Shown here: positions 1 to 34,096 of the stretch, one piece after another
Numbering within the stretch: the stretch's first letter is position 1
How the letters are laid out: each line of letters opens with the position of its first letter
Origin: Saccoglossus kowalevskii
Lineage: Eukaryota > Hemichordata > Enteropneusta > Harrimaniidae
DNA length: 39,536 nt
Reading direction: 5' to 3'
Assembly (NCBI RefSeq): GCF_000003605.2
Contig: NW_003149770.1
Location: 274,720 to 314,255 of the forward strand
Position numbers and translations under genes: made by a program
Notes under the pieces: generated by a model
Databases searched by the model: none
What the model was told of the DNA's origin: nothing
Seen by the model: only the letters and a program-made list of their open reading frames with translations

Positions 1-352
1 AAAATATATGTAACACACAAAGTCTGCACGAAGACAGTACAACGGAAGTATTGACCGACGCGACTGCGTACTGAGTGCATACTTTGCAGTATCCTCGTAA
101 TAACCTTACGGTATTATTATACATTTCCTCCCAGGAATACATCATGGAAATGTCGAAATTCGAAATGTTTAGAACAGATTTAACAAACTTCTTTGTGTGG
201 GGTTCGTTCAAATCCTGGGGGCAGCCATGTTTTTTTTCACATTATTAGAAGACGCTTATGCGCGTAATCGTTCCATATTTGGAATTCGCGTTTCCTAATA
301 TGGTAGGATGAAAATACCCACTGCAACTACGTACGGTGACAGATATATAATA
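1..352 (+). repeat. Interspersed repeat family A, copy 1 (cut by window start)
   Basis: This matches, with substitutions, the minus-strand sequence at 2588-2985 and the interrupted copy at 33409-34096. Shared landmarks in order are GACAGTAC, GTATCCTCGTAATAACC, a segment around ATCATGGAAATG, CTTCTTTGTGTG, ATTATTAGAAGACGCTTATG, CCATATTTGGAATTCG and GGTAGGATGAAA, ending near CGGTGACA. The left arm of the internal inverted repeat seen in the other copies is degraded here. No coding capacity is visible, so it is a non-autonomous element or a fragment. Confidence 0.75.
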
Positions 353-844
353 ATATATCGTATTATGAATAATGAACTCTTGACTTACAGTGCCATGTTG
401 GATTCATCATCGACTCCACATACAATATGGTTTTTACTGTTATAATAATAAATTTTTGTACACTCTTCATTGATGCTTTTTTTGAGACATTGTGGTCAGA
501 AAACATCTCATAATTTTCATGCAGAACCATAATATCAAGATGTAAACAAAATAGAGAATTTCAATGGGATTGTAACAGTTTTAATTTTTCATCTCTACAT
601 TTTTTTCAGTACGTGGCAGTACAAATAAGAGATACATGTCTGATTTATTCCATACTTTGCACGATAAGGGTTAAAGTTTCTCTCCATATTAATGTGTTAG
701 TAAGCAGAATGACCTGTATTCATGTGGACAGCCATTAATTCAACATGGAACAACTTCTGGCACTGTATGACTGGCCCACATTCATTTCTCATAATTTGTT
801 TAATTGCCACATATTTCATTCATTGGTTGAAAAAGTAATTGATC

Positions 845-871
845 ATAATATAATATAATATAATATAATAT
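845..871. repeat. TAATA microsatellite
   Basis: Perfect short tandem repeat of the pentamer TAATA, about five copies, in intronic or flanking sequence. Confidence 0.85.
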
Positions 872-2303
872 AAAATAAATTAAATTAGACGATTAAAACC
901 TATCATGGTTAGAAATATTTGTTTAATACAAACAAACTTGCCACACAAAAATGATTTGAGCTTAATTTCCTTCATAGAATGCATGTATTAAATGTAAGGT
1001 TAAATTATTGTTCAACAGTGTTGTAATAGCCACAGGGTACAAGGAGAACCACACCCATGGAGATTGGATTTTATATCCACATCTTAGTTTCATAAATCAT
1101 TGTTTATATTCAGGAGCTATAATCAGGATATTAGTTAGATATTTTCCAGCCCGAGGCAGTCTCTCGGCTTTCCACCTGTTAGTGGCTGAGGCGATCTATA
1201 ATAAACTGAAACCCTGCATGGTTATGTGTTATTACAGAGGCTAGCTACAACAGCAGTTTATTTGAAGTTGCACAAAACGCTGTTGAAAAAACATGTAATG
1301 AAGCCTAATTGGCTAGTTTGACGATGTAATTTAGCAAAATGTCTGCTAAAATGCCAACAATGATTATCATACTGTTGGCGTTTTAGCTAAATTACCGTTC
1401 CACTATATCAGACCTTGAGCACATTTGCTATTAAATGTTATGAAGTTATTTCAAATTAATACATGGAGTATATTATATGCACTACATGTACGTGTGTTTT
1501 GAGGGACATGTATGTATGGGTTGTAAATGACCTCATGGTTGAGTGGCAAGACTATGAGTATGCCTGTCAGCCATAGATACTGGAATTATCTCTACATGGA
1601 TGACAGTATATTCTTTTCATTTCAGTCAGATTGAAATTGGTCAACTGTATCAGGGGTGAAATAAAAGCGAAAAAGGAAGAGTTTGAATTATCCTGCAATC
1701 CCGAACAATCTTGTCAAATTATTTTAGAATTAAACATGTTTATAACATTTTCACCACCAGTTCCCTCTTCATCACAAATTCACAAAATAATCCTGTTTAT
1801 AGTCTGCACTTTTCTTCAGAAGATTGGGTCAAAAATAGCCAAATAGTTTAAACTGAAAAAAGAATTGACTTAAATTTTGTCTGTTGACTCCAAAATTTGA
1901 AATCAATTTAGCTATACTTGGCATTTTTACCTTGTGTGTGGCTCTGCTGACCATGCATGTTTTAATTTATGTTAATGTGCATAGCTAAAACTTGTGAATG
2001 ATTATTGGATGAATTTATTGTATATTTATCATTTTTTGCATTCTGCTCTAAGATGCGTTGTGAGTTATTTTCACCACACTTTAATAAATCAGTACAAGTG
2101 TACAATGTAGTTTCTAGCTGTTGTCAGCTGAAATTCAACTACTTGAAGTGCACGCACGTAAATATTATAATAATTTAAATAATTACCTAAATGATTCACC
2201 CATTACTGTGGTATCTAAGAATGAGCCACGTTCTACTTTCTCAAGGTGTGTCCTATTTTATGTATCAGTTTGGCTGTATCAACAAACGAATTCTGTAGAT
2301 GTA

Positions 2304-2317
2304 TGTGTGTGTGTGTG
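2304..2317. repeat. (TG)n microsatellite, short
   Basis: Seven TG dinucleotides in a row. A longer tract of the same type lies at 32244-32272. Confidence 0.85.
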
Positions 2318-2587
2318 AGTTATTAAATGAGGCTTTGTTCTAGTATGGTGAGTCTGTCCTCGTCTTTGTCCAGTATTAAACTTAATGGAGCATGACTGCA
2401 TAGCTAGTTGTATTCATACTTATAAGATACACATATAGACAGTCAGCTATAAATAGACTGACTTGAAGTTTTAATGTTAATGCTGACCATGTCATTTTGT
2501 ATTCATTCTATTTTTCCTAATTACCTGAATCTTCAGAATACAGTATGATGAGTACATGCATGTGAAGTCTAAATAAACACTATTATT

Positions 2588-2985
2588 ATACATTTGTCAC
2601 CGTAACGCCTTAAGTTACAGCTTGCCGTAATTTTGTGGTACTTTTTGGGCTATTTCATCCTACCATATTAGGAAATGCGAATTCCAATATGGAATGATTA
2701 CACGCATAAGCGTCCTCTAATAATAAAACAAAGATGACTGCCACCGGAGTTTGACGGGACTACATACAAAGAAGTTCGCTGATTCTGTTCTAAACATTTT
2801 GTATTTCGGCATTCCCATGGTGTATCCTTGGATGGAAAAGATGTATAACAATAAGGTTATTACAAGAATACCTCAAAGTATGCACTCAGACAGTACGCCG
2901 CTCATCGACCTATGCTGCACGTCGGTCGAAACTCCAGCTGTACTGTACTGTCTTCGTCCATACTCGTAATAACCTTATATTATTT
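2588..2985 (-). repeat. Interspersed repeat family A, copy 2 (inverted)
   Basis: Read on the minus strand, this follows copy 1 closely from the GACAGTAC block to GGTAGGATGAAA and on to GTTACGGTGACA. It contains an imperfect inverted repeat: GGTTATTACAAGAATACC at 2855-2872 against a CTCGTAATAACC arm ending at 2974, about 85 bp apart between the arms. This copy keeps the uninterrupted site, TTTTATTATTAG on the minus strand, where copy 3 has received another element. Confidence 0.8.
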
Positions 2986-5900
2986 CATTTTAATAGTTGT
3001 ATTGATCACATTAATAACCATTTGTTTTGATTTTACCTGTTCACCTTGTGTTACAGGGAAAGTCTTAGTGTTGTCTTTAAATTACAGGAAAAATAAAAAA
3101 GTCTTTAAAAAGTCTTTAAATTTCTTCATAGTTATAATTCATTTTAGAAAGGCCCATTTTCTCCAGGGAACTACCATATCCTCAGAACTTTCATAAGCTT
3201 TGGTGATGATGTTGGCCTGAATTAAGGGTCAAAATGTCTTTGGAAAAATGCAAGAAAGTTTGGGAAAAAGGTCTGGAAAAGTCTTGGAAATCATTTGGCT
3301 CTTAGTGCTATAGACCCTGTGTTAAAAACCTTATTACAACTTGGATCACAGTAATTGTTGATGTCATGAGATTTAATTTTATACTGATTTGTCTTATATC
3401 AGTACATTCATTTGTACTTTCCTAAAGGAACTTCATTTCTGCACCTCACTAAAATAGGATTTGTTTCACATTTATGTTCGATATTACCTTTAACCCTAAT
3501 CTGGTCAAAAGTACATGGGGCTGGCAGAATAATGGTTAATTTTGTCTTTCCCATTTTTACTGTTCTCCGAAACTATATGATGCTCTATTTTCATTAAAAA
3601 TGTCTTCTGTGATACATACAAACTGTATAGTTTTCGTTATTTCTGGATTTTATGCCATCCGTGAAAACAAAATTTCACGGAAGTCACTGAAACGCCATAT
3701 CGTAGGGCCCCATAAATGTCACTGCTACAAGATGCAGCAAAAAAATTATATCTCACACAATTTTAGCAGTTTACAGTATAAAGAGATATGATTCGTTTTC
3801 ATATTCATGTTCTTATCAAATACATGCATACATAGTAGCTAAAAGGAAATCAAATCAATTTAATCTTAGATTCAATATATTTGACCTATTTTCATGGAAG
3901 ACGCTAAGTCCAATGATATATTACAATACTTATTATTAAAATTAACTTGAATTGCGGTGACTTTATATTGGGTTTTTTTGATTACTAGACAGAGTACCAT
4001 AGTTGATGAGATAAACCTGTTTTACAGTCTATATGTTGTCATAATCCCAAATTTCACTTTTATCTGTTCCCTTTTTAATTCACATATATAAATATTAATC
4101 TTTGATTGAACTCTTCATCTTTGACAATGTGGGAATGGGGTGTCTTCACATAATCTATTTTAATAAAATTACTCTGAATTTGTATTGCATGGATTTCTAT
4201 TTTGCGCTCAGATTTCCCTACTTTGAGCCCCCTGGTTTGGATTGCTTGTGTGCTGTGAGCACAGAGGTTGCATCCTTCAAACGACCACACAAGTGTTCAT
4301 CTCTCTTTGCTTTTATATGTGTATATATGGTGTGCTATGTTAACACCTGCATTGTTTGAATGTATTGTTCCATAAATACAGTCATATTCCCAGGGACATA
4401 TGCACCATTTAGAACTGACACAATTCTATGAAGCTGACCTGGGCTTTAAATATTTATTGCTGAAATTCACACTGTTTGTAACTGGTATTGACAGGACAAC
4501 ACTGATTTAAAAAAACAAAACAAACAAACTCCAAAACTGTTAAAAAAAGACATGAGAAAATAATGAGAAATTAATTATTTTATACTCTCTATGTCAAACA
4601 TGCTTTAATATACATGTAGTTATAAAACGCCTTCCACCTCGCCACTTCAGTGAAAATGAATTCAAATTGAAAAAATACTCTCTCACTGCATTTTGTTGAT
4701 ATATCCAGTGGAGCCATTGGCCTCTATTTAGAATATATTACAGTCAATTCATGCAATTCATTGATATTTCATGTGCTAATCCACTGAAGTAGGATATCTT
4801 ATATCTCTGCTTTTTACAAATATTTTTGGAATTTTGCACGTTTTCAAATGTATTATTTAGTCATGTAATATCCCATATATAATTTGACTTTCTAATAGAA
4901 TAATTTTTTTTGTTATGACGTTTATTAATGGAACAGTACTGTCATGCCTTCTGTCAGTCCTAATAGGTTTTTGCAGTTAACCAGTTGGATGCAGTTGTTG
5001 ACATTTATGTTTGTTTGCCAATAGCACTCAAGCCCCTTTGAGTATGGCTCTTACTGACTATCACAATATTTTATATTCTGTGCATCCATCCTATATTTTT
5101 CCAATAAATTCCTTGATATATTGAACAGTCAAAGTCTTTTTTTTTTTGCCCAGTTATTGATTATTTTTATCTTACGCAGAAATATAAGGTATTATGCGAA
5201 CAGCAAAGAGACAACAACTGGTTCAGTTGTGTGGGTGGATCACGTGCAGTCTTGCTGCCCAGTGGACCCCTCAGCTGTGTAGAAATTATGCCTTGATGTA
5301 CGCCTTAGTTTAGTCAACGTATGTTCAGTGTGCATGAATATCTCCATGTCTCAGCTCCTTATGCACTTGACATTGTCATGCTCTTTCTGGTTGATTGAAA
5401 TGTGCAATATATAGAAATAACATTCGCCTGTCTTGTTCGTGTCATTGACAAGCTTTGTATTAACTAGATTCTCATTTCCCTAAAAATGAAATTTATCATT
5501 TAGTGGACATAACAATAATTAAAAAAATATCTGACTTCAAATATCTGAATTAATTAATTGTCATGTTTTTTATGTCTTAAACTCTCTTGATAAACATTAT
5601 CTGTAAATACATTTGGTTAATATGTTAATTTTGCGTTATATACTGTCAATTTATGCACAGTTTATCATGTCCTATTTCTAATATGAAGTATGACTTCAGT
5701 CCTTGCATATAGATAATATTTATGCATACTGGCCAGGATATACTTTGGACTACAGTTTGGGTGGCACAAGTACCGGTATGGTCTACTTTGTCTTAGCTTC
5801 AGTTTGGGTGGCACAAGTAATTTATTTGTCATATTTTCACTAGATTTGCATCTCGTTTGTGAAAAATGCTAATATTCCATGTGAAAACCAATTAGCAGCA

Positions 5901-7862
5901 AAAACCTTGCATTCTAGTTTGTTTTATTTCAGCAAACTTCTCACACTAAATCAAGGTCTATATATGTAGGCAGTCGGTAGTCATCAAATTTAGTACTTGC
6001 GCATGTGAATGACGTAAATGTGTTTGGTGGAAGGAATGTCAACAGTCTGTTAAGTTTGATTTGTTATTATTGCATATTTAATGAAGGCATTTGCATAATC
6101 TCCCTGCTTTCTCTATTGCTGTGCTGCTAAATTATGTTTCATGTCACATTGGGCCATTCCAGTTTATATCTGCACCCCTCTGGATTACCAGGGCATTTAG
6201 TCGCTCAATTCACCTTACCTTATTGATATGCAGATTTCAAACTACTTTAACCACAGGTCATTGGTAGTTCACTGGTTAAACCCTTTTGCTTTATATTCAT
6301 GCATAACACATGTTAGTACATTTGAGCTTCTTATTTTTGCAAATCTAATGAAATATCATGTGTTCTGTTTTATAGCAGAGATGCATGTATCGATGGATTT
6401 ACTCTTAGTTATAGTAATTTTATTAACACATAACAACCCTTGGAAGGTATGAAAAGGTTAGAATTGAAATGAATAAAAAAAAGTGTACAATTAAGGTGTG
6501 TGTTGCTGTCTATGTGGCATACATATTGATATGAACTGGTTCCGTATTGACATGTCATGCTTGCCCATAAGGAATTCAGATTTATTTTGAATTGAATATT
6601 TATTCTTCACATTTGGTGCAGTGTTCAATTACATTGCCATCACAGTGTTCTCAGGTCTGTTCAATAACAGGCACATTTAAGAAAAAGTGCATGAGCTTAC
6701 ATAAATACAGTGAATTTTGCTTTAAATATTATATTTTGAGTTTGGATGCATACTTGTGTATGACAGGTGTGTGAGATCATACTATCATCTTGTAGTTACG
6801 ACCTTTGCCTATGTTGTTTGTTTTAACGAGTCTGAATTTTTACTTTTTATAAAGTGAAAACACCTGGCTGTGCTCTCTGACCAGATCTGTTGTCAAACAT
6901 ATTCACTAGTCATCATGCATTTAAATGGAAACAAACAATATTGTATATACTTTGTATGTGCATGGGACAAGTATCTAGTATGACACTATGTAGAGACTGT
7001 GGCACATACACTTCAATATTCTGCATGTGTGTAACTGTTTTTTTTGGTGCAAAATCCAAAGTACAATTCGAACTAATTCCATATAGGAATCTTTTTTTTT
7101 TCATATAGGTACTCCTTCATTATGTATGTGTACCCTTGCTTCCACTTAATCTATCAGTATGTATACATTTTTTTTTTGAACTTCCACTAACTGCAATCCA
7201 TGTACATGTACGTGTACACGCATGCTGATGGTCATTCCTAGTAAAATATTGATTTGTGCCTCCGAAAACATCATTGTTAATAGCATTGCAGATGACTATT
7301 GGGAATAAGCCTTGTAGAATGGGTTGTCATCAGTGAAATTTGTAATCTGCGAGTATCCTTCTGTACATACCTTCTGGTGTAGTAAAACTGTATCACATGA
7401 TATCGGTGTCTGAGTTGGTACATTGCACTTCACAGTGATAAATTTCACTTGAAAGGAAACTTACTATCAGCTGCTTTTGAGTCGTCCCCAGAGAGTTTCT
7501 TTTAAATTCATTACCGGTAACTATGATCTTAAATGATCATGACCTTTACGGGTACTTTGATGTCAAGGTACAATGTACTATACTGGTAAATCCAAACATT
7601 AACTAACGTAACTGAGTTGGTTTTAATAGAAAATAAAAAGCAAAATTGGAAAAAAGAAATGACTTGCAATTCTTACTTTTGTATACCTGAATCAAGCACT
7701 ATATCTTGGTCCTTAATTTTCAATTTATAAAACCAAACTGAGCATCTAATGTTCATTTTGCTTTTTAACATGAATGAACAGATGAACAGAGCAATTTCAT
7801 TCAGACTTTGTATGAGGATCATACATATTCAAGTTAGGTTACATGTGCACATCACATGTTTT

Positions 7863-7912
7863 TGAGGTTCAAACAAAATTGGTCGATTGGTGGCCATTTT
7901 GTTTTTATTCAT
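7863..7912 (+). repeat. Family E repeat fragment (GGTGGCCATTTTG type)
   Basis: The block GGTCGATTGGTGGCCATTTT with its flank GTTCAAACAAAA matches the segment around 16810-16845. It is a solitary fragment of the repeat family that forms a longer run at 16640-17163. Confidence 0.6.
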
Positions 7913-9459
7913 TTTTATTCTGATTCCTCACCTGTGTATTATTTTGTGATTTGATCAAATTTGTTGAAATGATAATCATTTTGTCTAAAATCCACAAATC
8001 TCAGTCTGTAAGGTGTTCGAAATCATTTCAGATAATATTTTCTGATTTTTGCTTTTTATTATTTTTTGTCATTACATATGATAAAAAAGTACAAAATTGT
8101 AAAAGGATGTTATGAAATAGTTAGCTCATAAAACATTTTACAAAATGCAATGGATACCCACTTATCCAGTAATTTCATGCAATTATATTACACTACTAGG
8201 AAATGTCAGCTGAATAAAAAGGTGGGCAGTATTCAATATTTGCAAGAATGATCATATCAGATCTATATATCCAAGATGGAGGTCACTCGTTTTTTCCCCG
8301 AGCATAAATGTGAAATTAATACTGATTGACAATCTAGGCATCCGCTACCCCTTTGGCAATTGTTAATGCTGAATTACAATGTACATTTATTTTTTATTAT
8401 GAACTGAGGACTTTTTTTAAACCATGAATTTCTGAGAAACTAGTTGTTATTTAAAATGTCATCACCAACAGAAAAGTAAATTAAATTGGGAAAAGTATTG
8501 CTTAATATAAAGTGTATGTAATATGAATATACCGGTAGTACTACCGGTAGTGGGTATATTATAATTTTTCTCATGAATCTGAAAAACATTTTTATAATGC
8601 TATCTCGTCCAGTCCATCTAGGTAGCGGCTGAACAAATTTGTAATTTGCTAAGAAAAACAAACTACTGCTGCATCCTTAGCTGAAGCGCACACATACTGT
8701 TTAAATAGATCATTGAAATGATGTATAAAACATTTTCCAGCCTAGTGAGCAGAACAAAATAAAACCTGGTGGGAACACTGGAGACACAAAGTGGTTTTCC
8801 TGTATATTGGTTCATTTAAAATTGACATCGCTACACATGCATTTACTCGTCTGTGTATGTATACACATTATATTATACGATTATATTCCATTTACCCAGG
8901 CATGTCTATTCTACATTACACTAACCAAATAAAATCTGTGCAATGGTATTTGCACTAACTTTCCTACTGTTGTAATCAAATTAAAAGCAAAATACAAGTT
9001 TCCTTTACTATAGTATTTTGTGCTTACTAGTCACATATCCCTCCTTGGTTATTGACTTCTTCCTGTGCCAGATCATGTGATATTATCATCCCACTCTCGC
9101 CTGATTGCCAATTTATGTTATTTGCCGTTTTAACTGGAATGGGTGGCAATTCATCAGCCACCTCCAAAGTAAATCAAATTTTGTGAGTATCGGAATAGAA
9201 TCTGAGTCAACTCCACCACTTAGGGAATTCCCTCAGATTCCATCTGTAATGTTGTATATTCTAGATTAAATGTTCTATGCTTTTAGTCTTAAAAACTGCA
9301 ATGTGTATACCACTATTTTAACTGGAAGTATGCTGGTTCTCTATTGAAAATATTTTAATTAATTGTCATCGTGCTCTACTATGTATGCATACACTACTCT
9401 TATGTGCAGCTACTCTGTATAGTACACAATGCATGTAGCAATTTGAATGCATAGAATGA

Positions 9460-9623
9460 TACTGTAAAATACTTTATTTTAGCTGGAATTAATTTTCGCT
9501 GATTTTTGACAAGGTTTACATAAAATATAGGTAAACAGGTATATTCACTGGGTTTTATTTTCACTGAATTATTCCTTCAGCGAAAATAGCGACAATTCCA
9601 AGCGAAATTAAGTATTTTACAGG
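9460..9623. mobile_element. Foldback/MITE-like family D, copy 1
   Basis: About 164 bp with long terminal inverted repeats. The left end TACTGTAAAATACTTTATTTT pairs with the right end, which reads AAGTATTTTACAG; the inner AGCTGGAATT pairs with AATTCCAAGC. A second copy is at 24957-25167. It has no open frame, which fits a non-autonomous DNA element able to fold into a hairpin. The target-site duplication is not clear. Confidence 0.75.
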
Positions 9624-9681
9624 AGTTTATCTAAATGTACAAGCAAATTATTGTTACATGTACAGGCTTTTGTTTGTTTTA

Positions 9682-10091
9682 TATACCATTCTAGACTTAT
9701 CAGTAATTATAAAAACAGATTACTAAACTTTGTATTGTCACATGGTGAATGCTATAACTACCAACAGACTTATCAGTAATTGGTTTATACCATTCTAATA
9801 ACAGATTACTAAACTTTGTATTGTCACATGGAGAATGCTATAAATACCAACAGATTTATCAGTAATTGGTTTATACCATTCTAATAACAGATTACTAAAC
9901 TTTGTATTGTCACATGGAGAATGCTATAAATACCAACAGACTTATAAGTAATTGGTTTATACCATTCTAATAACAGATTACTAAACTTTGTATTGTCACA
10001 TGGAGAATGCTATAAATACCAACAGACTTATCAGTAATTGGTTTATACCATTCTAATAACAGATTACTAAACTTTTTATTGTCACATGGTG
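9682..10091. repeat. 86-bp tandem repeat array, about 4.7 copies
   Basis: The anchor ACAGATTACTAAACTTT recurs at 9715, 9801, 9887, 9973 and 10059, giving an exact 86-bp period. Units differ by only a few substitutions (for example ATCAGTAATTGG against ATAAGTAATTGG), so the expansion is recent. The first unit is the most diverged. There are no cas genes and no spacer/repeat alternation, so it is a minisatellite within non-coding DNA upstream of the first visible exon. Confidence 0.95.
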
Positions 10092-11036
10092 AAGATTTAT
10101 TTTTTCAATAATTTGTTTCATGTCATCTGATTACTTTGGACATGAAGTACATGTACCTGTGCAATGAAATTTAATCATTAGGGGGGAGCATGTGATTACA
10201 ATTAGATTGGATAAAAACTGTTTGCACTGTAACTCCATGTAAACAAATGTAGATTTGATACACAAGTCCTACAAATGGGTTAAGACAGTATCTGCCATTT
10301 CAGGGCGAGAAAGAACGACAAAGATAAAAACCATTGAGTCTAAAAATCCAAGTAAACACAGATTTTAAAGCTTTTTGATTCTATACCTGTTAAGTGTAAA
10401 GCAGTGTTTGTTCATACTCAACCCTGTACTGTCAAAGTATTGATGCATTGACCTCTGCATGAGTAATCTGTTTGTTTTTTTTTATTATTTTAACAAGATA
10501 TAGTGATTGTAATTAGTTTTGGATGCCGTCCAAGTGAAGATGTTTTTGAAATATGAACAGGAAGTTCTTAAAGTTTGACATGCTCTGCACTTAATGCATC
10601 CTCTCTCCCTGTAGACTGACTTGTAAATGGAGTTGAAGGCTGCGCACGAAGTCGCGGTTGTTGTGTGCCAGTAATTCTCCTGTAATAATGTTCTGTCTTC
10701 TGGAGTGTCTCAACGAGTACAAATAACATGTACCATGCATGTATATAGTGCCATAAAATATATGTAGCCTGTTATATCATTTACATTGTCATTAAATTAA
10801 CTCGCCTCAATGTACATATTAGTTAAAGGGAAGAGGTTGCCCTGCCAGGTTTTGAGTTCCATAGCACATGTAAAATACATTGTTCGCAATAATATTTGAG
10901 CGTTCACTGTGTGACAACCATTGCCCTTCAAGTACATGTATGCTGGGATGAAAAAAAAAAAAGCGTTTTGTGTAATTGAATCACCTTTTTTATATTATTT
11001 AATTTGTGAAATATTTCCTTGACTGCGAATACATAG

Positions 11037-18890: not shown

Positions 18891-19965
18891 GTAAGATAAC
18901 ATGCTACATTCATTCTCAGTGTGGGTCATGTGAGGTCACATCCCCAGTGCAGGTCATGTGAGGTCACATCCTCAGTGCAGGTCATGTGGTCCACATCCCC
19001 AGTGTGGATCATGTGAGTTTACATCCTCACAGCCAGGTCGTGTGAGGTGGCATCCTCACAGCCAGGTTGTGTGAGGTAACATTCTCACAGCCAGGTCGTG
19101 TGAGGTCACATCCTCAGTGTGGGTCATGTGAGGTCACATCCCCAGTGCAGGTCATGTGAGGTCACATCCTCAGTGCAGGTCATGTGGTCCACATCCCCAG
19201 TGTGGATCATGTGAGTTTACATCCTCACAGCCAGGTCGTGTGAGGTGGCATCCTCACAGCCAGGTTGTGTGAGGTAACATTCTCACAGCCAGGTCGTGTG
19301 AGGTCACATCCTCAGTGTGGATCATGTGAGGTCACATCCTCAGTGTGGATCGTGTAAGGTCACATCCTCACAGCCAGGTCATGTGAGGTCACATCCTCAC
19401 AGCCAGGTCATGTGAGGTCATATCTTCAGTGTGGGTAATGTGAGGTCATTGTTAGAGTCATGTATGGTCATTTCACACAGATCAATTAACTGTACAAATT
19501 TGTAATATGTAGTAACAAAGTAACTTGTTTTTTATACATTGTACTGAAGGATTGGGTAACATATTATACTATAATTCTTTCATGAATTGGATCATGAACC
19601 ACCAAAAAAAAATTAAAGATGTCCACAAAAAATGTGAAATTTTAAGTTATGATCTATGCTCAACAAATTCTCATTCAGAATTTGAATATTCACAAATGAA
19701 ACTTTGAAATATAAATCTCACTAACAATTTTTTTTTGCCAATGAAGTGGTGGGAATTTATATCCTCGCCTTGGAACAGTGAGAATATGAAAACTGGGACT
19801 AATATCTAATCTCACTGAACTGCGAGAAGTCTCAGTTCTCTCTTTTGCCTGCAGTTCTTCCTAATAGTAAGGTATATTATTTACCAATAATTGTTATTAG
19901 TTCACTTTGGAATCTGAGAAAAGTCATTGCACTGTCTGATATCCAGTATTTCACTTGTCTTGCAG
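18891..19965 (+). other. Intron dominated by a minisatellite
   Basis: 1.07 kb. Roughly half of it is the 28-bp minisatellite with higher-order structure (18917-19447). The rest is AT-rich. Phase-0 codons K and L are joined. Confidence 0.9.
18917..19447. repeat. 28-bp minisatellite with 198-bp higher-order repeat
   Basis: The basic unit is about 28 bp, of the type GGTCATGTGAGGTCACATCC followed by TCAGTGTG or TCACAGCCA. Seven variant units (CAGTGTGG, CCCAGTGCA, GTGGTCCACATCC, GAGTTTACATCC, GAGGTGGCATCC, GAGGTAACATTC and so on) recur in the same order starting at 18917 and 19115, giving a 198-bp higher-order period that is almost identical between copies. Diverged single units follow. It begins close to a donor site. 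Confidence 0.95.
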
Positions 19966-22596: not shown

Positions 22597-23511
22597 GTGA
22601 GTAATGTACTTGCACAATTTAACATAACATTAGATGTTTTGTGTCAATATTTTGTGGTATCTGAGCTTTTGTTGGTTACCTGCTCATGTACATCTTAACA
22701 AGTCAAATAGGAGATCTCATTCGTATGATCACTTTGGGTAAATTACTCAACTGTTCAAAGAACATTTTACTTCTAGAATACATCACAACACTTTGTTTGA
22801 AACGCGCATTCTGAATGATCTTTACTGAACCAATCAAAAAACGTTTTACTTCTAGGATGTACCGCAATACTTTGTTGTTGAAACGTGCATTCTGAGTGAT
22901 CTTTACTCAACCAATCAAAAAAAAACGTTTTACTGCTAGGATGTACCGCAATACTTTGTTGTTGAAACACGCATTCTGAATGATCTTTACTGAACCAATC
23001 AAAAACCGTTTTACTGCTAGGATGTACCACATCACTTTGTTTGAAACACGCATTCTGAGTGATCTTTACTCAACCAATCAAAAAACGTTTTACTGCTAGG
23101 ATGTACCACAACACTTTGTTGTTGAAACACATCTTCTGAGTGGACATATTATACTCAAAAACAAAAATATTAGATCTTATTTTAATCAGATTAGTCTATA
23201 CATGAAACACATAAATAGTGTTCAGTTGGTCACATAATTATTCTAGTATTATTATACCAGTATTTCATTTGCCTGAATATGTTGTTCTGATTGGTCAGGA
23301 GTTCTTGGCAGTAGTTATTCCTTCAATATTGTTGATTGGTTTATTGTGATAGATCTTAATTTTCATCGTACGCCATCATCTGGGGAAAATTCGCCTTAAA
23401 GGAATTATTATTTTTCACTTTTAATTCAACATGTAGCTGCAAATACATTGAGGGAGTTCAGTTTGAAATAATGAATTTTAAATATCTAATTAATTTTTTT
23501 GTTCATTTCAG
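22597..23511 (+). other. Intron with 80-bp tandem array
   Basis: 0.9 kb. The main content is the tandem array at 22762-23135; the remainder is AT-rich. The Asp codon is restored across the junction. Confidence 0.85.
22762..23135. repeat. About 80-bp tandem repeat, 4-5 copies
   Basis: TTTTACT(T/G)CTAGgATGTACC...CTTTGTT followed by GAAAC...CATTCTGA(A/G)TGATC recurs with TTTTAC at 22765, 22844, 22928, 23009 and 23088 (spacing 79, 84, 81, 79). Length varies through a GTT duplication and the A-run before CGTTTTAC. Neighbouring units alternate GAATGATCTTTACTGAACC and GAGTGATCTTTACTCAACC, which suggests a two-unit higher-order pattern. The open frame on the minus strand across it is repeat-derived. 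Confidence 0.93.
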
Positions 23512-28370: not shown

Positions 28371-28599
28371 CATGGCAATTGGTACAGCTAATGGTATAGC
28401 AATAGTGGATTTTATACAAAAAACATGTCTACTCAATATGGGGACACCCGATCTGTATGGATCGGCTGATCCCTACCAGAGAACACCACGCTCGCCAAAG
28501 CGAAATAAACCACAGGGCTTAGGAGATATAGTTGAGCAAGGAATGACAGAACCTGAGAGGTGTCGGTCACCGCCGGGTAATTCAGGTAATTCTGATCAG
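28371..28599 (+). CDS. Tomosyn exon 14 (second propeller start, linker entry)
   Basis: Completes Leu, then reads MAIGTANGIAIVDFIQKTCL, LNMGTPDLYGSADPYQRTPR, SPKRNKPQGLGDIVEQGMTE and PERCRSPPGNSGNSDQ. It follows vertebrate FGNCNGIAMVDYLQKAVLLNLGT, LYGSNDPYRREPRSPRK and PEDRCKSP up to the hypervariable linker. Acceptor TTATTAG, donor CAG|GTAAGT. It ends in phase 0, so the next exon must start in phase 0. Confidence 0.97.
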
Positions 28600-29103
28600 G
28601 TAAGTCATAATATCTACTTTACAAGTGGGAAATGAAGTATTTCTTAATAAATTTTTTTGCATAATAAATATCTAATTTGCATAGTTTTTACCCAAAACTT
28701 TTTTATTGATACTTCAAAAACTGAGTTGATTTTAATGTCATTAATACAAAACTAGTACATTATAGTAAAAAGTCAAAACAGTAAATAAAGATTCATGTAC
28801 TTCGTGATAATCATAAAGTGATATTATATTGTACTATGGCTTGTACAATCTACTCTATTATGCTCAAAGGGTAATTTTTCATTGACTCAATAATTGAAGG
28901 TATTGAACTTTATTACTGTGCACTTGGCTTATGCTTGGCTGCTTCAAGACACAAGATACATGACACTTTTGCTTTCTATTTTCAAATGTGGTCATATGAA
29001 GCCCAAATTTCCAGCCAGCTCACAATATTATTCCCACTATACAGGCTTGTAGTATGTTTGCTTTTATTTGTATCTTATATGTTTTATGTCATATATTTTG
29101 CAG
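28600..29103 (+). other. Intron, no notable content
   Basis: 504 bp, AT-rich. A strong polypyrimidine tract and TTTTGCAG precede the next exon. Confidence 0.85.
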
Positions 29104-29254
29104 CAAAACGGTGTTTGTCTGAGTCCCACTAGTAATAATTCCAAGAAAGAGAAGCGGCCAAATGACGCACAGCTAAAGAGGAGTAAGTCACAAGGAACAC
29201 GAAAGTTACTAAAAAAGGGCGAATCAACTGCATCTGAAGGTGGTAATGGCGAAG
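29104..29254 (+). CDS. Tomosyn linker cassette a (KRSKSQGTRKLLKKGE)
   Basis: Opens in phase 0 after TTTTGCAG and reads QNGVCLSPTSNNSKKEKRPN, DAQLKRSKSQGTRKLLKKGE and STASEGGNGE. The product is strongly basic, Ser/Thr-rich and low in hydrophobic residues, as expected for the tomosyn hypervariable linker. The chosen end is GAAG|GTATCG at 29254, in phase 1, which joins the GAC codon of the exon at 33160. Two other phase-1 donors lie inside it, A|GTAAGTC after 29182 and GAAG|GTGGTA after 29239, so three lengths are possible. Without splicing it reads on to a TAG at 29293-29295. Which donor is used cannot be told from the sequence. Confidence 0.8.
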
Positions 29255-29710
29255 GTATCGACGTGGGATGCATGGGTGGATTTATGAGTCAGTAGTTACC
29301 AAATTCACAAATATCTCAATATTGTGTGTTCTAACGCATTATCTGGGCAGCTCTGTCATCACATTTTTCCTTGCATATAACCAAACATACACTTTCTTGG
29401 TAGTGCATGATTGTGTAGAAGACCCGTCTTGAAGTATAAAACATGTACTTTAATAATGCAAGTGTCATTCATTACGTTAACTGTGACATTACTGTCATAC
29501 ATCCCCCCCAAATTGAAGACACAGACTTGCATGTTTTTTTATAATAATGAAGGAATTTTTTGATTACTTAATTAAAATTACCACCAATTATATAAACTTA
29601 AATAAAATTTAAAATCAATTCCATGAATTTGCATGAAATTTTTTTGGATTTTAATTCTTATGTAAAGAATAAATGTTTATATAAAGAATAAACTTTTTAT
29701 TATTTTCTCA
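29104..29710 (+). other. Possible alternative terminal exon (stop at 29293-29295)
   Basis: If cassette a is not spliced at its internal donors, the frame continues 13 codons past 29254 to TAG at 29293-29295. AATAAA signals follow at 29668 and 29687. The product would be a tomosyn ending in the linker, without the second half of propeller 2 and without the R-SNARE. AATAAA is frequent by chance in sequence this AT-rich, so support is weak. Confidence 0.25.
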
Positions 29711-29846
29711 ATTTATTTTTAATACAATTATTTCAATAAATGCATTAATTTCTATATATATTTCACAAAATAGGTTGCCCATTTTTTCCAATAAATGTTG
29801 ATTAATACCTGCAGGCAATGACAATTGCACTGCAGAATACTAGAAA

Positions 29847-29867
29847 AAATAAATAAATAAATAAAGC
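29847..29867. repeat. (AAAT)n microsatellite
   Basis: About five AAAT units, intronic. Confidence 0.85.
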
Positions 29868-30631
29868 AAATGGTTGAATGAAAAAAAAACATCAAAATTT
29901 GCCAGACGGGACTATGTAGGGATGTGTTGATCTTCTTTGAGAGACTTATCTAGTTTTTCTACCCTTTAGGGAAAAATGACTCGGATAAAAAAACAAAAAA
30001 ACAAATACAGTTGTATGTTGTAATCTAACTGATATTTTCACTATTTCAATTGACTACCGGTATTTCAACCAATTATTTAGAAATATTAACTGTTACAGTT
30101 CGACTGATTGTAAGCTGATACTTTTATGTTCGATGGTATAATTATTCACAAAGTACAGGAAATATGCCCTAAAATGTTCTAATTTCACTGATTTTTCAGC
30201 ACATTCAAATGTTGACAATTATTTCTTATTCAAATGTTTACCTTTCTTTTTATGCCTGGAACATTTTCAATAATTGTAGCTTAATTATACCAACAAACAT
30301 GTAAGATCATCTCAAAATCCCTATAAACCTGGAAGTATGAACATACTGCTATAATCTATGAGCCATCAGTAGATATTTACAACAGATACATTTAAACTTG
30401 AACACCATACTAGAGACTAATTGAGACTAAGACTAAATGAGCATAAATCATTGTATTTTAGATCAGTCTTTGTGAAACTTTGTTCTCATTACCACATTTT
30501 TACATCAAATCCTGAATTTGTTTGCAGAGGAAAATTTAAGAATTTACAAATTTAAAGGTCCACATTATTGTTAGTATTAAAGACAATCAACAGAAGTATG
30601 CCTTAAACAATGGGATTAAAAGTCACTTTCA

Positions 30632-30660
30632 GGGGTGGGGTGGTGTGGGGGGGGGTAGGG
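30632..30660 (+). promoter_or_regulatory. G-rich tract with quadruplex potential
   Basis: GGGGTGGGGTGGTG, then a 9-base G run, then TAGGG. At least four G-runs of three or more lie on the sense strand within the linker intron, between the two candidate alternative cassettes. Confidence 0.5.
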
Positions 30661-31705
30661 TTTCCATGAAAGCTTTGATTGTCTCTATTTGTATTGCAAG
30701 CAACAACTTGGCACAATAAACCAATCCAGCTGCTTTATTTATGTATTTAAAATGTGATTGCTCGCTATGCGAGTAGAGTTGCCCAGATATGCAAGTGGAA
30801 ACTATTTCAAGTGTATGATGCACTATCACTTTATGCACTTTTGACATGTCTTCTCATTGTTGCTTTTGTATAATTTTGGAATTGTTAACTGTTTATATTA
30901 ATTGACCATATATCATTCTATATGTGTCTTTGATGTACGGTAGCCACTGACTTGCTTATGGCTTACTTTTATGGTTTTATTATTATTATTTTCCTCCCTG
31001 GTGTTTTTTTTGCTGTATTTGTTTGGTGGGCTGTTGTAACCTTCGCTATTGCTTATTATTAACTAAAAAGCATGATTATAATCTTATGAAAAGTAACTCT
31101 ACAATAAGTCATGAGGTTTTTATTATCAGAAAAAAACTTCTTACACAGTAGGACATGTGAACAAATTACATATTCATGCAACTGTGTTGAAAAAATATTG
31201 CAAATATTGTGTTCTTAAGTTGATGTTCATTATCATGTATATATATATATAATATCAAAATGAGTTGATAAACAGCCATTGATCTTGGAAAGCTTTTTAG
31301 ATCTGATAAAAAAGAAAGATTTATGTACATCAACTTAATATGAACCCTTGCACTGTGTTTCACATGTCATGTGTTAGCATGTTATATATTAAAGACCAGA
31401 CATGTGTACATAATTACCTACATTTGATTATTCATTGCATTTTAATATACACATGGTAGTTATCAGACTGGGCGAGATTGATGCTGGAACTGATGATGCA
31501 TGTATTAGCCCAAAACTTTGTTATGCGCTACACTATACTCCAGTGTGACTGCTTCCATTCCAAAAAATAGTTAAATTTGTGTAATATTTGTACTGCAAAA
31601 CTCCATCAGAAATGCGTGTTACAAACACCTGAATTGGGTGACCATATTTGGAATATGGCAGCTACAGGTTCACATGTTTTCTGTATTTCATTTTTCAATT
31701 TACAG

Positions 31706-31754
31706 GACATAATAGCTCATATCAGCAATGTCTCCATTGAAAGATTGAAGCAAG
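31706..31754 (+). CDS. Candidate tomosyn linker cassette b (49-base exon)
   Basis: After a very good polypyrimidine tract and TTTACAG, 16 codons read DIIAHISNVSIERLKQ, then one base, then the donor CAAG|GTGCAT. The exon starts in phase 0 and ends in phase 1, exactly as cassette a does, so it can replace cassette a between 28599 and 33160 but cannot be joined in frame after it. The sequence DIIAHISNVSIERL faintly recalls the vertebrate linker ANDIAKMSRKLSL. Read through, the frame stops at TGA 31805-31807, with AATAAA at 31817. Similarity is weak, so this is a candidate. Confidence 0.5.
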
Positions 31755-32240
31755 GTGCATTGTTACAGGGAAATCAGCTGCCTGATCAATTTAACCATTC
31801 AAGTTGAAACCACTGTAATAAATGCACCGTCCCATTACAAATCACAAACATATGTTTGACACATAATTCAACCAGTAAAGTGGACTCATTAATTTTGTGA
31901 AAATGTGTGAATGATAAGGGAAACATGCTGAAGTCTAGTGTAGCATCAGCGATGACACATAACACAAGTCTTGGGTATATATAGGGTATGGGTATTTGCC
32001 AAACTATAATATAGAAAACAAATTAGGATATTCTCGGTAGAATTTAATTGATAGATAGATTCATGACATCTTCACTTCATGTTTGTATACTAGTTAATTT
32101 AATACATTCATGATAACATTGTACTTGTATTATTTGTACCTATACTCACAGTGATAAGCTTCATGCATTTATTGTGTTATGTATCATATGTGCGTGTATG
32201 TATTGTGTGTGCATATCATATGTTTGTTTATGTACTAGTA

Positions 32241-32274
<34 letters not shown>

Positions 32275-33159
32275 TCTCTTTGTTTATTCATTTGTTTATA
32301 TATTAATAAACTAACAGAAATATGTTTCATTCTTTCTGCTGTAAGCCTTCCTACATTGCTTACTTTTTTGAATATATGGTTTTTTCCCCAACCCAACCCC
32401 TACTCCATTGATCTTGATGATGAAACCATATTTTGCACTTTCTTCTCAATAATAGATGTGATCTTGTTGCATTGATGTTTTTTTTTTGTTGGTTTTTGAT
32501 TTTTTTTGTGCGTGTGTGATTGTTTAGCGTTATTTATTTGGCTGTAGTTGTCATGGTGAACTTGTTCTCTAGTCTATCCTATATTGACATTCTTTTTGTT
32601 TACTCGTCACCAAGACACAGACGGAGCGAGTAGATGCTCATCTCTTTTAACACCTGGTAAATAGACATTATATGCCCATGTAAAAATTTCCTTTTTCTAA
32701 TCAATTTTTTTCTATACTTTGCACCCTTTCTCCATACTCTTTCTCTCTTACTATGTGTCAGGTTTAGCCGTTATTCATTGATGGCTGTTTTCCTATATTA
32801 TTTCACTAATAAAATATGTATGTGTATACATGTATATTTCTGATATTGGGAAAACTGTTCGAAAAGAACAGCCAATGTTGCTTGTAACTGCACTCAAAGT
32901 CACACACAAACAGCATGTTATGTTATGTTTCTTCATAAGTTTCACCCTTGCTCGTTTCATGTTATGCCCGCATTTGGGTACACTTTATTATACACTCTTG
33001 GCAGTTTCATCTTGCTAGGGTTCAATTTCAACTTTCACAAATTCTATACTACATTTCAGCATTTTTCAAACTATTTTACACTTTCACTTTCGTATAAATT
33101 CTCTGCGTACTTGAAAATGCCAGTCAGCAGATTTGTTTGACGTTTGTTTCCATCCTTAG
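31755..33159 (+). other. Intron with (TG)n tract
   Basis: 1.4 kb. A (TG)n tract is at 32244-32272, followed by pyrimidine-rich sequence (32640-32760). It carries no recognised exon. Confidence 0.8.
32244..32272. repeat. (TG)n microsatellite
   Basis: About 14 perfect TG units. TG tracts near splice sites can bind CELF- and TDP-43-type splicing factors. This one lies in the intron after candidate cassette b, about 490 bases past its donor. Confidence 0.9.
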
Positions 33160-33276
33160 ACCGAGGAGAAGGATCATTTACCAGGTCGCGGAGTTCAAGT
33201 ATGTCTAGTCTTGAGAGGGAAAGCAAGGAAGCTATTAATTGCTTGGCATTTGCTGAGTCATACACAACCAAAACAG
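33160..33276 (+). CDS. Tomosyn exon 16 (RSRSSS phosphorylation-type motif)
   Basis: Takes one base from the preceding exon to make Asp, then reads RGEGSFTRSRSSSMSSLERE and SKEAINCLAFAESYTTKT. It matches vertebrate NSFSRSRSSSVTSIDKESREAISALHFCETFTRKT. The RSRSSS motif fits basophilic kinase consensus sites (PKA/Akt type), and phosphorylation of the tomosyn linker is known in mammals; its use here is inferred. Acceptor CATCCTTAG, donor ACAG|GTAATT. It ends in phase 1. Confidence 0.96.
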
Positions 33277-33408
33277 GTAATTCAATAGCTATTGAGGTTT
33301 TGGGTTTTATAACTTCATCTGTATGTAGGTTTATTTTAGATCACAGTGGTTAGATATTTTAGCGTTAAACATGCACTGTTGTAAGAAATGGGTATGTGCA
33401 CTGTACTA

Positions 33409-34096
33409 TGAGGTTATTATAAAGATACCAAAAATTATGCACGAAAACAGTACAGCGGAAGTATCGACCAACATGGCGGCATACTGTCTGAGTGCATACT
33501 TTTGCGGTATCCTCGTAATAACCTTATTACTATACATCTTTTCGTCCCAATGATACATCATGGGAATGCCGAAATCCAAAAAGTTTATAATAGAATGAGT
33601 GAACTTCTTTGTGTGGAGTCCAGTCAAATCCTGTTGGCACCCTTGTTTTTAGCTCCGCTGTCGACTTTGTCTAGCGGAGCTTATCATATGAGTGATTGTC
33701 CTCCGTCATCCGTCGTCGTCCGTGTCAATGTTTTACTTTTTTGACTTCTTCTTGAAAACTACATGCCTGAATGCTTTGATACTTGGTGTATATGTACCTT
33801 GGGTGGACCTCTCTCAGATTTGTTCATTTTGTAATGATATTTTCAATTCTCTAATTTTGGTGAATATTTTTGTCATTTTTGGTAGAAAGTGATATTTTCG
33901 GCTTCTTGTTAAAAACTGTAAGTCCGATTGCTTTGATACTATACATATTGTTCATTTTCTAATGATGTCTTCAGTTCTTTAATTGAAATGTGCATTGCTA
34001 ACAGCGGAGCTATCTCAGCCGATAGGCTGCTTGTTATTATTAGAGGACGCTTACTCGCGAAATCATTCCATTTATGGAATTCGCAAAATTACTAAT
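33409..34096 (+). repeat. Interspersed repeat family A, copy 3, interrupted
   Basis: The left part 33409-33650 and the right part 34036-34096 together follow copies 1 and 2. An inverted repeat GGTTATTATAAAGATACC (33412-33429) / GGTATCCTCGTAATAACC (33506-33523) encloses the GACAGTAC block (written AACAGTAC here). The right part resumes at ATTATTAGAGGACGCTTAC. The interruption is the family B element, so family A was here first. Confidence 0.85.
33651..34035 (+). mobile_element. Family B hairpin-ended element nested in family A
   Basis: Left end AGCTCCGCTGTCGAC with a second arm AGCGGAGCT at 33673. Right subterminal ACAGCGGAGCT at 34001-34011, hairpin CAGCC-GATA-GGCTG at 34016-34029, and terminus CTTGTT. 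It has one fewer internal unit than the copy at 13389-13924 (TCAATTCTCT at 33843 and TCAGTTCTTT at 33971). Comparison with family A copy 2 shows the empty site TTTT|ATTATTAG and no clear target duplication. Confidence 0.82.

Follow-up and report, generated by a model that had tools for sequence, protein, structure and literature searches.

Exon phases, alternative donors and candidate alternative splicing in the tomosyn linker of Saccoglossus kowalevskii

Tomosyn is a brake on neurotransmitter release and sets release probability. We analyzed 39,536 nucleotides from the hemichordate Saccoglossus kowalevskii (assembly GCF_000003605.2, contig NW_003149770.1, positions 274,720 to 314,255; this whole stretch is referred to as the window), with a focus on the interval that encodes the variable linker of tomosyn (28371-33276). 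Most of an invertebrate tomosyn gene is on the forward strand of the window, with exon-by-exon tblastn matches to human STXBP5 across 11038-36681. The human STXBP5 and STXBP5L sequences used for homology are not database records. The joined exon peptide contains the LLGL-type double beta-propeller scaffold (Pfam LLGL, E-value 2.8e-31, 108.2 bits with a cut-off of 22). Neither the C-terminal R-SNARE motif nor the first and last exons of the gene were found in the window and its flanks, where N accounts for 54,794 of 139,536 bases, including the 10 kb that adjoin the window on each side. The assembly (572 Mb, 4830 contigs) has one tomosyn locus; no second one was found, the sole other match in the genome having an E-value of 3.28. 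A first-pass annotation, made from the sequence alone, had named both the gene and the linker region correctly. When the linker region was compared to the PDB, three matches were obtained, none of them significant (best E-value 0.1; the related Lgl1 is among them, with an E-value of 0.26), and a comparison to Pfam returned nothing above the cut-off.

Four exons on the forward strand are considered here. The upstream constitutive exon U (28371..28599) exits in phase 0 at CAG|GTAAGT, with a donor score of 8.92 (splice sites were scored by position weight matrices (PWMs) built from metazoan frequencies). The downstream constitutive exon D (33160..33276) requires one incoming base. Both have tblastn matches to human STXBP5, and no relatives of exon U were found in viral and prokaryote contigs. 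Exon A (29104..29254; 151 nt, 50 codons) is basic and serine-rich. Candidate exon B (31706..31754; 49 nt, 16 codons, DIIAHISNVSIERLKQ) has a strong acceptor (4.81) and a weak donor (1.54). GT/AG borders are present at U, A, B and D. The lengths of A and B are each 1 mod 3, and both exons are open when entered in phase 0. At these sites, the reading frame is open through U-A-D and through U-B-D, while U-A-B-D is terminated by a TGA that lies within B, and the U-D junction leads to a frame shift. All exon coordinates and phases of the first-pass annotation are confirmed. It had further claimed that the frame survives with one exon of the two and is lost with both or with none, and that this pattern is the signature of mutually exclusive exons. 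The statement on single exons stands; the one on both or none applies to the named sites only and fails with other donors.

Enumeration of every donor in U, A and B that has a PWM score of 0 or higher resulted in 60 combinations, nine of them in frame. In four of these the order is U-A-D, and the end of A is at 29182, 29239, 29242 or 29254; another is U-B-D. A further three skip both A and B, with U spliced directly to D after 28576, 28585 or 28624. The last contains both exons, with A ending at 29262 and followed by B. The donors in A after 29182, 29239 and 29242 are in phase 1, and the one after 29262 is in phase 0. The tail of U (28577..28599 on the forward strand) would be lost if the phase-1 donors after 28576 (2.92) or 28585 (4.17) were used, and joining either of these to D keeps the frame in the absence of both A and B. 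The 28585 donor (CAGGTAATTC) is an identical 10-mer to the donor of D itself, and it scores higher than the best donor of A (2.29) and that of B. This best donor of A is the one after 29182 (GGA|GTAAGT), which exceeds the one after 29254 (0.55) that had been named initially. The 29262 donor (GAC|GTGGGA, 0.87) is weak and has no G at -1. Once the donors at 28576, 28585, 28624 and 29262 are allowed, it no longer holds that both exons together, or neither, are out of frame, as would be the rule for mutually exclusive exons. Because in-frame routes exist that skip or include both exons, the pattern of phases does not by itself amount to the signature that had been claimed. As the 29262 donor is in frame with B, transcripts with both exons and a different phase solution are possible on paper, albeit with a weak donor. 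The frame is a weaker filter than originally proposed, and no strict either/or is forced.

Exon A is real and its assignment is secure. Its codon score (0.40) is that of coding sequence (reference means are 0.19 for 468 coding windows and -0.26 for 4275 non-coding windows). When compared to the linker of human STXBP5L (tomosyn-2), exon A has a local alignment score of 57 (shuffle mean 24), which was reached by none of 5000 shuffles. Its likeness to the linker of human STXBP5 (tomosyn-1) is weaker (P 0.016). The STXBP5L linker segment used here has 57-58 residues by count, and a mouse Stxbp5l exon of 171 nt (57 codons) would, judged by its length, correspond to that segment. For a comparison of splice site strength, 19 constitutive donors and acceptors were chosen by eye from the exon list (one listed exon is in the wrong frame). 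The named donor of A (0.55) is lower than all 19 donors, and all other possible donors of A are weak as well. In view of these weak donors, and of the clusters of UGCAUG and UWAA motifs in the following intron, exon A is probably regulated.

The hexamer TGCATG (Rbfox-type) occurs four times on the forward strand after exon A, at 29269, 29404, 29528 and 29630 (29269..29635), which are the densest 400 nt of the window. Each of 20 other listed exons is followed by at most one copy. There are 29 copies in the window, which corresponds to a local Poisson P of 2e-4, and the maximum at seven other loci of the assembly (47,956 non-N bases) is three per 400 nt. A UGCAUG downstream of an exon promotes inclusion of that exon. 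An Rbfox-type cluster is thus present in the intron downstream of A, and control by an Rbfox protein is predicted from it. A UWAA-rich stretch (STAR-type sites) extends over approximately 29541..29760 on the same strand, with 17 motifs in 200 nt. This is the densest such stretch in the window, where the mean is 3.7 per 200 nt and the next-densest stretch has 13; among 4639 further 200-nt windows, from the same 47,956 bases, the highest count is 12. The region 29255-29800 is single-copy DNA: a genome search that skipped simple repeats returned no match besides the region itself. A Sam68-like KH gene and an Rbfox-like RRM gene are both found in the genome. The Pfam domain Fox-1_C had no match in this genome, but as it had none in any of 14 control genomes either, this negative carries no information.

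For candidate exon B, the question is whether it exceeds chance expectation. When the thresholds are loose (1.5 for acceptors and 0.5 for donors), the stretch from U to D contains no open exons besides A and B that enter in phase 0 and leave in phase 1 (0->1 exons). Shuffles of the intron sequence have a mean of 0.345 such exons (SD 0.57), there is none in 18,669 bp from the other introns of the gene, and there are five in window positions 1-11030. At the two thresholds of B itself, which were set from B, a 0->1 exon was obtained in 2% of 200 shuffles and in none of 29.7 kb (the other introns together with positions 1-11030). When the summed score is used instead, this 29.7 kb contains 18 candidates as good as B over nine phase combinations; three of these are 0->1 exons, all in 6622-7516, a region that may include undetected 5' exons. 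The acceptor of B is exceeded by about three of the 19 constitutive acceptors, and its donor is above just two of the 19 constitutive donors. The 181-base neighborhood of B matches only itself in the genome. A further open pseudo-exon is found in the intron between A and B (30200-30300, acceptor 2.3, donor 2.9); it enters in phase 0, leaves in phase 2 and does not fit to D.

The most stable duplex of the A-B intron with the B-D intron joins 31505-31654 to 31830-31979 (-70.3 kcal/mol). It encloses B and could loop it out. For that pair, the z-score is -4.8, and none of 300 shuffles was as stable, but one of nine shuffles in which the best of all duplexes was taken (family-wise) reaches -70.3 kcal/mol (the shuffle control covered the i2-i3 intron pair). 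Docking/selector pairing was therefore dropped as a structural mechanism for exclusion.

Tomosyn linkers are known to be varied by splicing in fly and mouse (PMC8612732, PMC3948876, PMC10066595). In Drosophila, exons 13A and 13B are reported to be mutually exclusive and encode a loop that projects from the WD40 core. 13A is conserved in insects while 13B is poorly conserved, and release in the mutant was rescued by either form (PMC8612732). The insect precedent invoked in the first-pass annotation is thus on record, and exons e23/e24 of mouse Stxbp5l are likewise described as mutually exclusive, and they change when SLM2 is absent (PMC10066595). As in S. kowalevskii, there is a single tomosyn gene in Drosophila, where one coding exon, that of the WD40-core loop, is reported to be spliced in a mutually exclusive manner. 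In contrast, 13A and 13B are backed by transcripts and rescue constructs (PMC8612732), whereas A and B are known from genomic sequence. The mouse Stxbp5l exon of 171 nt is described as flanked by UWAA motifs and as responding to SLM2 and Sam68 (PMC5397175). This resembles the situation at exon A, next to which UWAA motifs are denser than elsewhere in the window and which is similar to the human STXBP5L linker. The mouse exons would be located in the tomosyn linker region (PMC10066595, PMC5397175, PMC5199341, PMC3636136). Unlike A and B, the 171-nt exon and an upstream exon of 93 nt are multiples of three, so that their frame demands no choice. Mammalian tomosyn-1 has m, b and s isoforms, and the linker segment SLPTDLKPDLDVKD is reported to be absent from s1 through exon skipping (PMC3948876). 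A 28585-33160 junction in S. kowalevskii would be the analog of this short s-type form. Tomosyn-1 differs in that it has cassette skipping rather than an either/or, and exon A is closer to the human tomosyn-2 linker than to that of tomosyn-1.

Coordinates, phases, open frames, motif positions and the single copy are directly established here. The reading that we favor, tentatively and at somewhat less than an even chance, is that of a regulated linker in which A is either included or not, out-of-frame products decay, and B and the 28585 donor are candidates for in-frame alternatives. The interval would then correspond to a linker that undergoes alternative splicing, with A as an alternative exon, in an invertebrate tomosyn gene present as a single copy. 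The UGCAUG and UWAA clusters in the intron after A could bind Rbfox-type factors, which would enhance inclusion, and STAR-type factors, which would repress it. When A is not used, the frame could be kept via B (from U in phase 0 through B to D) or via the 28585 donor joined directly to D. Nonsense-mediated decay would clear the out-of-frame combinations. If such products are removed by decay, the frame acts as a filter on products and does not force a choice between exactly two exons. The outcome would be a loop of altered length and charge on the beta-propeller scaffold, similar to Drosophila exon 13, and this may in turn affect release.

Several points weigh against a regulated linker. Exon B could be a pseudo-exon, and splicing might never use the 28585 donor. 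The homology of exon A rests on vertebrate sequences that are not database records. For any 400-nt stretch with four TGCATG motifs, a scan of the window results in a P of only 0.065. The enrichment of UWAA was dropped as independent evidence, as 17 motifs are also reached in 19% of the dinucleotide shuffles made locally from this A+T-rich sequence. It is almost as likely as the favored reading that A is constitutive, that B is a pseudo-exon, and that the linker is not alternatively spliced in this interval. In line with this, a phase-matched exon with a summed score as good as that of B is found in 53 of 500 shuffles (10.6%). The codon score of B is neutral (-0.06, likelihood ratio 0.79), with 19.9% of the 4275 non-coding windows scoring as high. 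A homology of B to the vertebrate linkers was rejected, since there is no likeness to that of tomosyn-1 (P 0.22) or tomosyn-2 (P 0.43). From the summed-score shuffles, the neutral codon score and the lack of likeness to the linkers, it follows that B, while ranking first among the 0->1 candidates of the interval, is not clearly beyond chance and is not established. Of the proposed pair, A is thus real, but B is not clearly separable from a pseudo-exon by splice-site, ORF, codon and homology tests. Points against a constitutive A with B as a pseudo-exon are the strong acceptor of B, the fact that A and B are the sole 0->1 exons in the interval at loose thresholds (with none in 18.7 kb of other introns), the motif clusters after A, and the variable linker splicing in fly and mouse.

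Strict mutual exclusion of A and B, as proposed in the first-pass annotation and without any in-frame isoform that lacks both or contains both, is unlikely. It would agree with the phase pattern at the named sites and with the mutually exclusive exons reported in fly (PMC8612732) and mouse (PMC10066595). However, the 28585 donor offers in-frame skipping and the 29262 donor in-frame double inclusion. In addition, A and B are of unequal length and do not have the look of a tandem duplicate pair, and the duplex enclosing B is matched among the family-wise shuffles. A and B might also be used in series, with A ending at 29262 in phase 0 and followed by B and D. This route is in frame and open, and its donor scores slightly higher than that at 29254; however, this donor is weak, and B must be real. 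We consider it very improbable, and count its share within that of the regulated linker.

Repeats were encountered elsewhere in the window. Inverted-repeat arms at 71-320 and 2646-2889, approximately 2.3-2.7 kb apart and 76-92% complementary, look like the ends of a transposable element, and a similar end motif occurs again at 33408-33527. Three tandem arrays were observed: at 9706-10093 (86-nt unit, 4.5 copies, 96% matches), at 18911-19448 directly after a tomosyn exon (28-nt unit, 19 copies, with a higher-order period of 198 nt), and at 22743-23142 within a tomosyn intron (79-nt unit, five copies).

The locus is possibly a further example of the tomosyn linker splicing already known from fly and mouse. 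It is tempting to speculate on a three-way, frame-filtered switch (A, B, or neither via 28585), with A being orthologous to the STAR-regulated exon of mammalian Stxbp5l and following the same UWAA/STAR logic, complemented by UGCAUG/Rbfox sites. Regulated linker splicing would then be as old as the common ancestor with vertebrates. We regard this combination as a long shot. If B is a pseudo-exon, the case illustrates that phase arithmetic, taken by itself, readily gives the impression of mutually exclusive exons. If STAR/Rbfox-type regulation of A is common to mammalian tomosyn-2, it would become testable whether the tuning of release through splicing of the linker has an ancient origin or has originated repeatedly.

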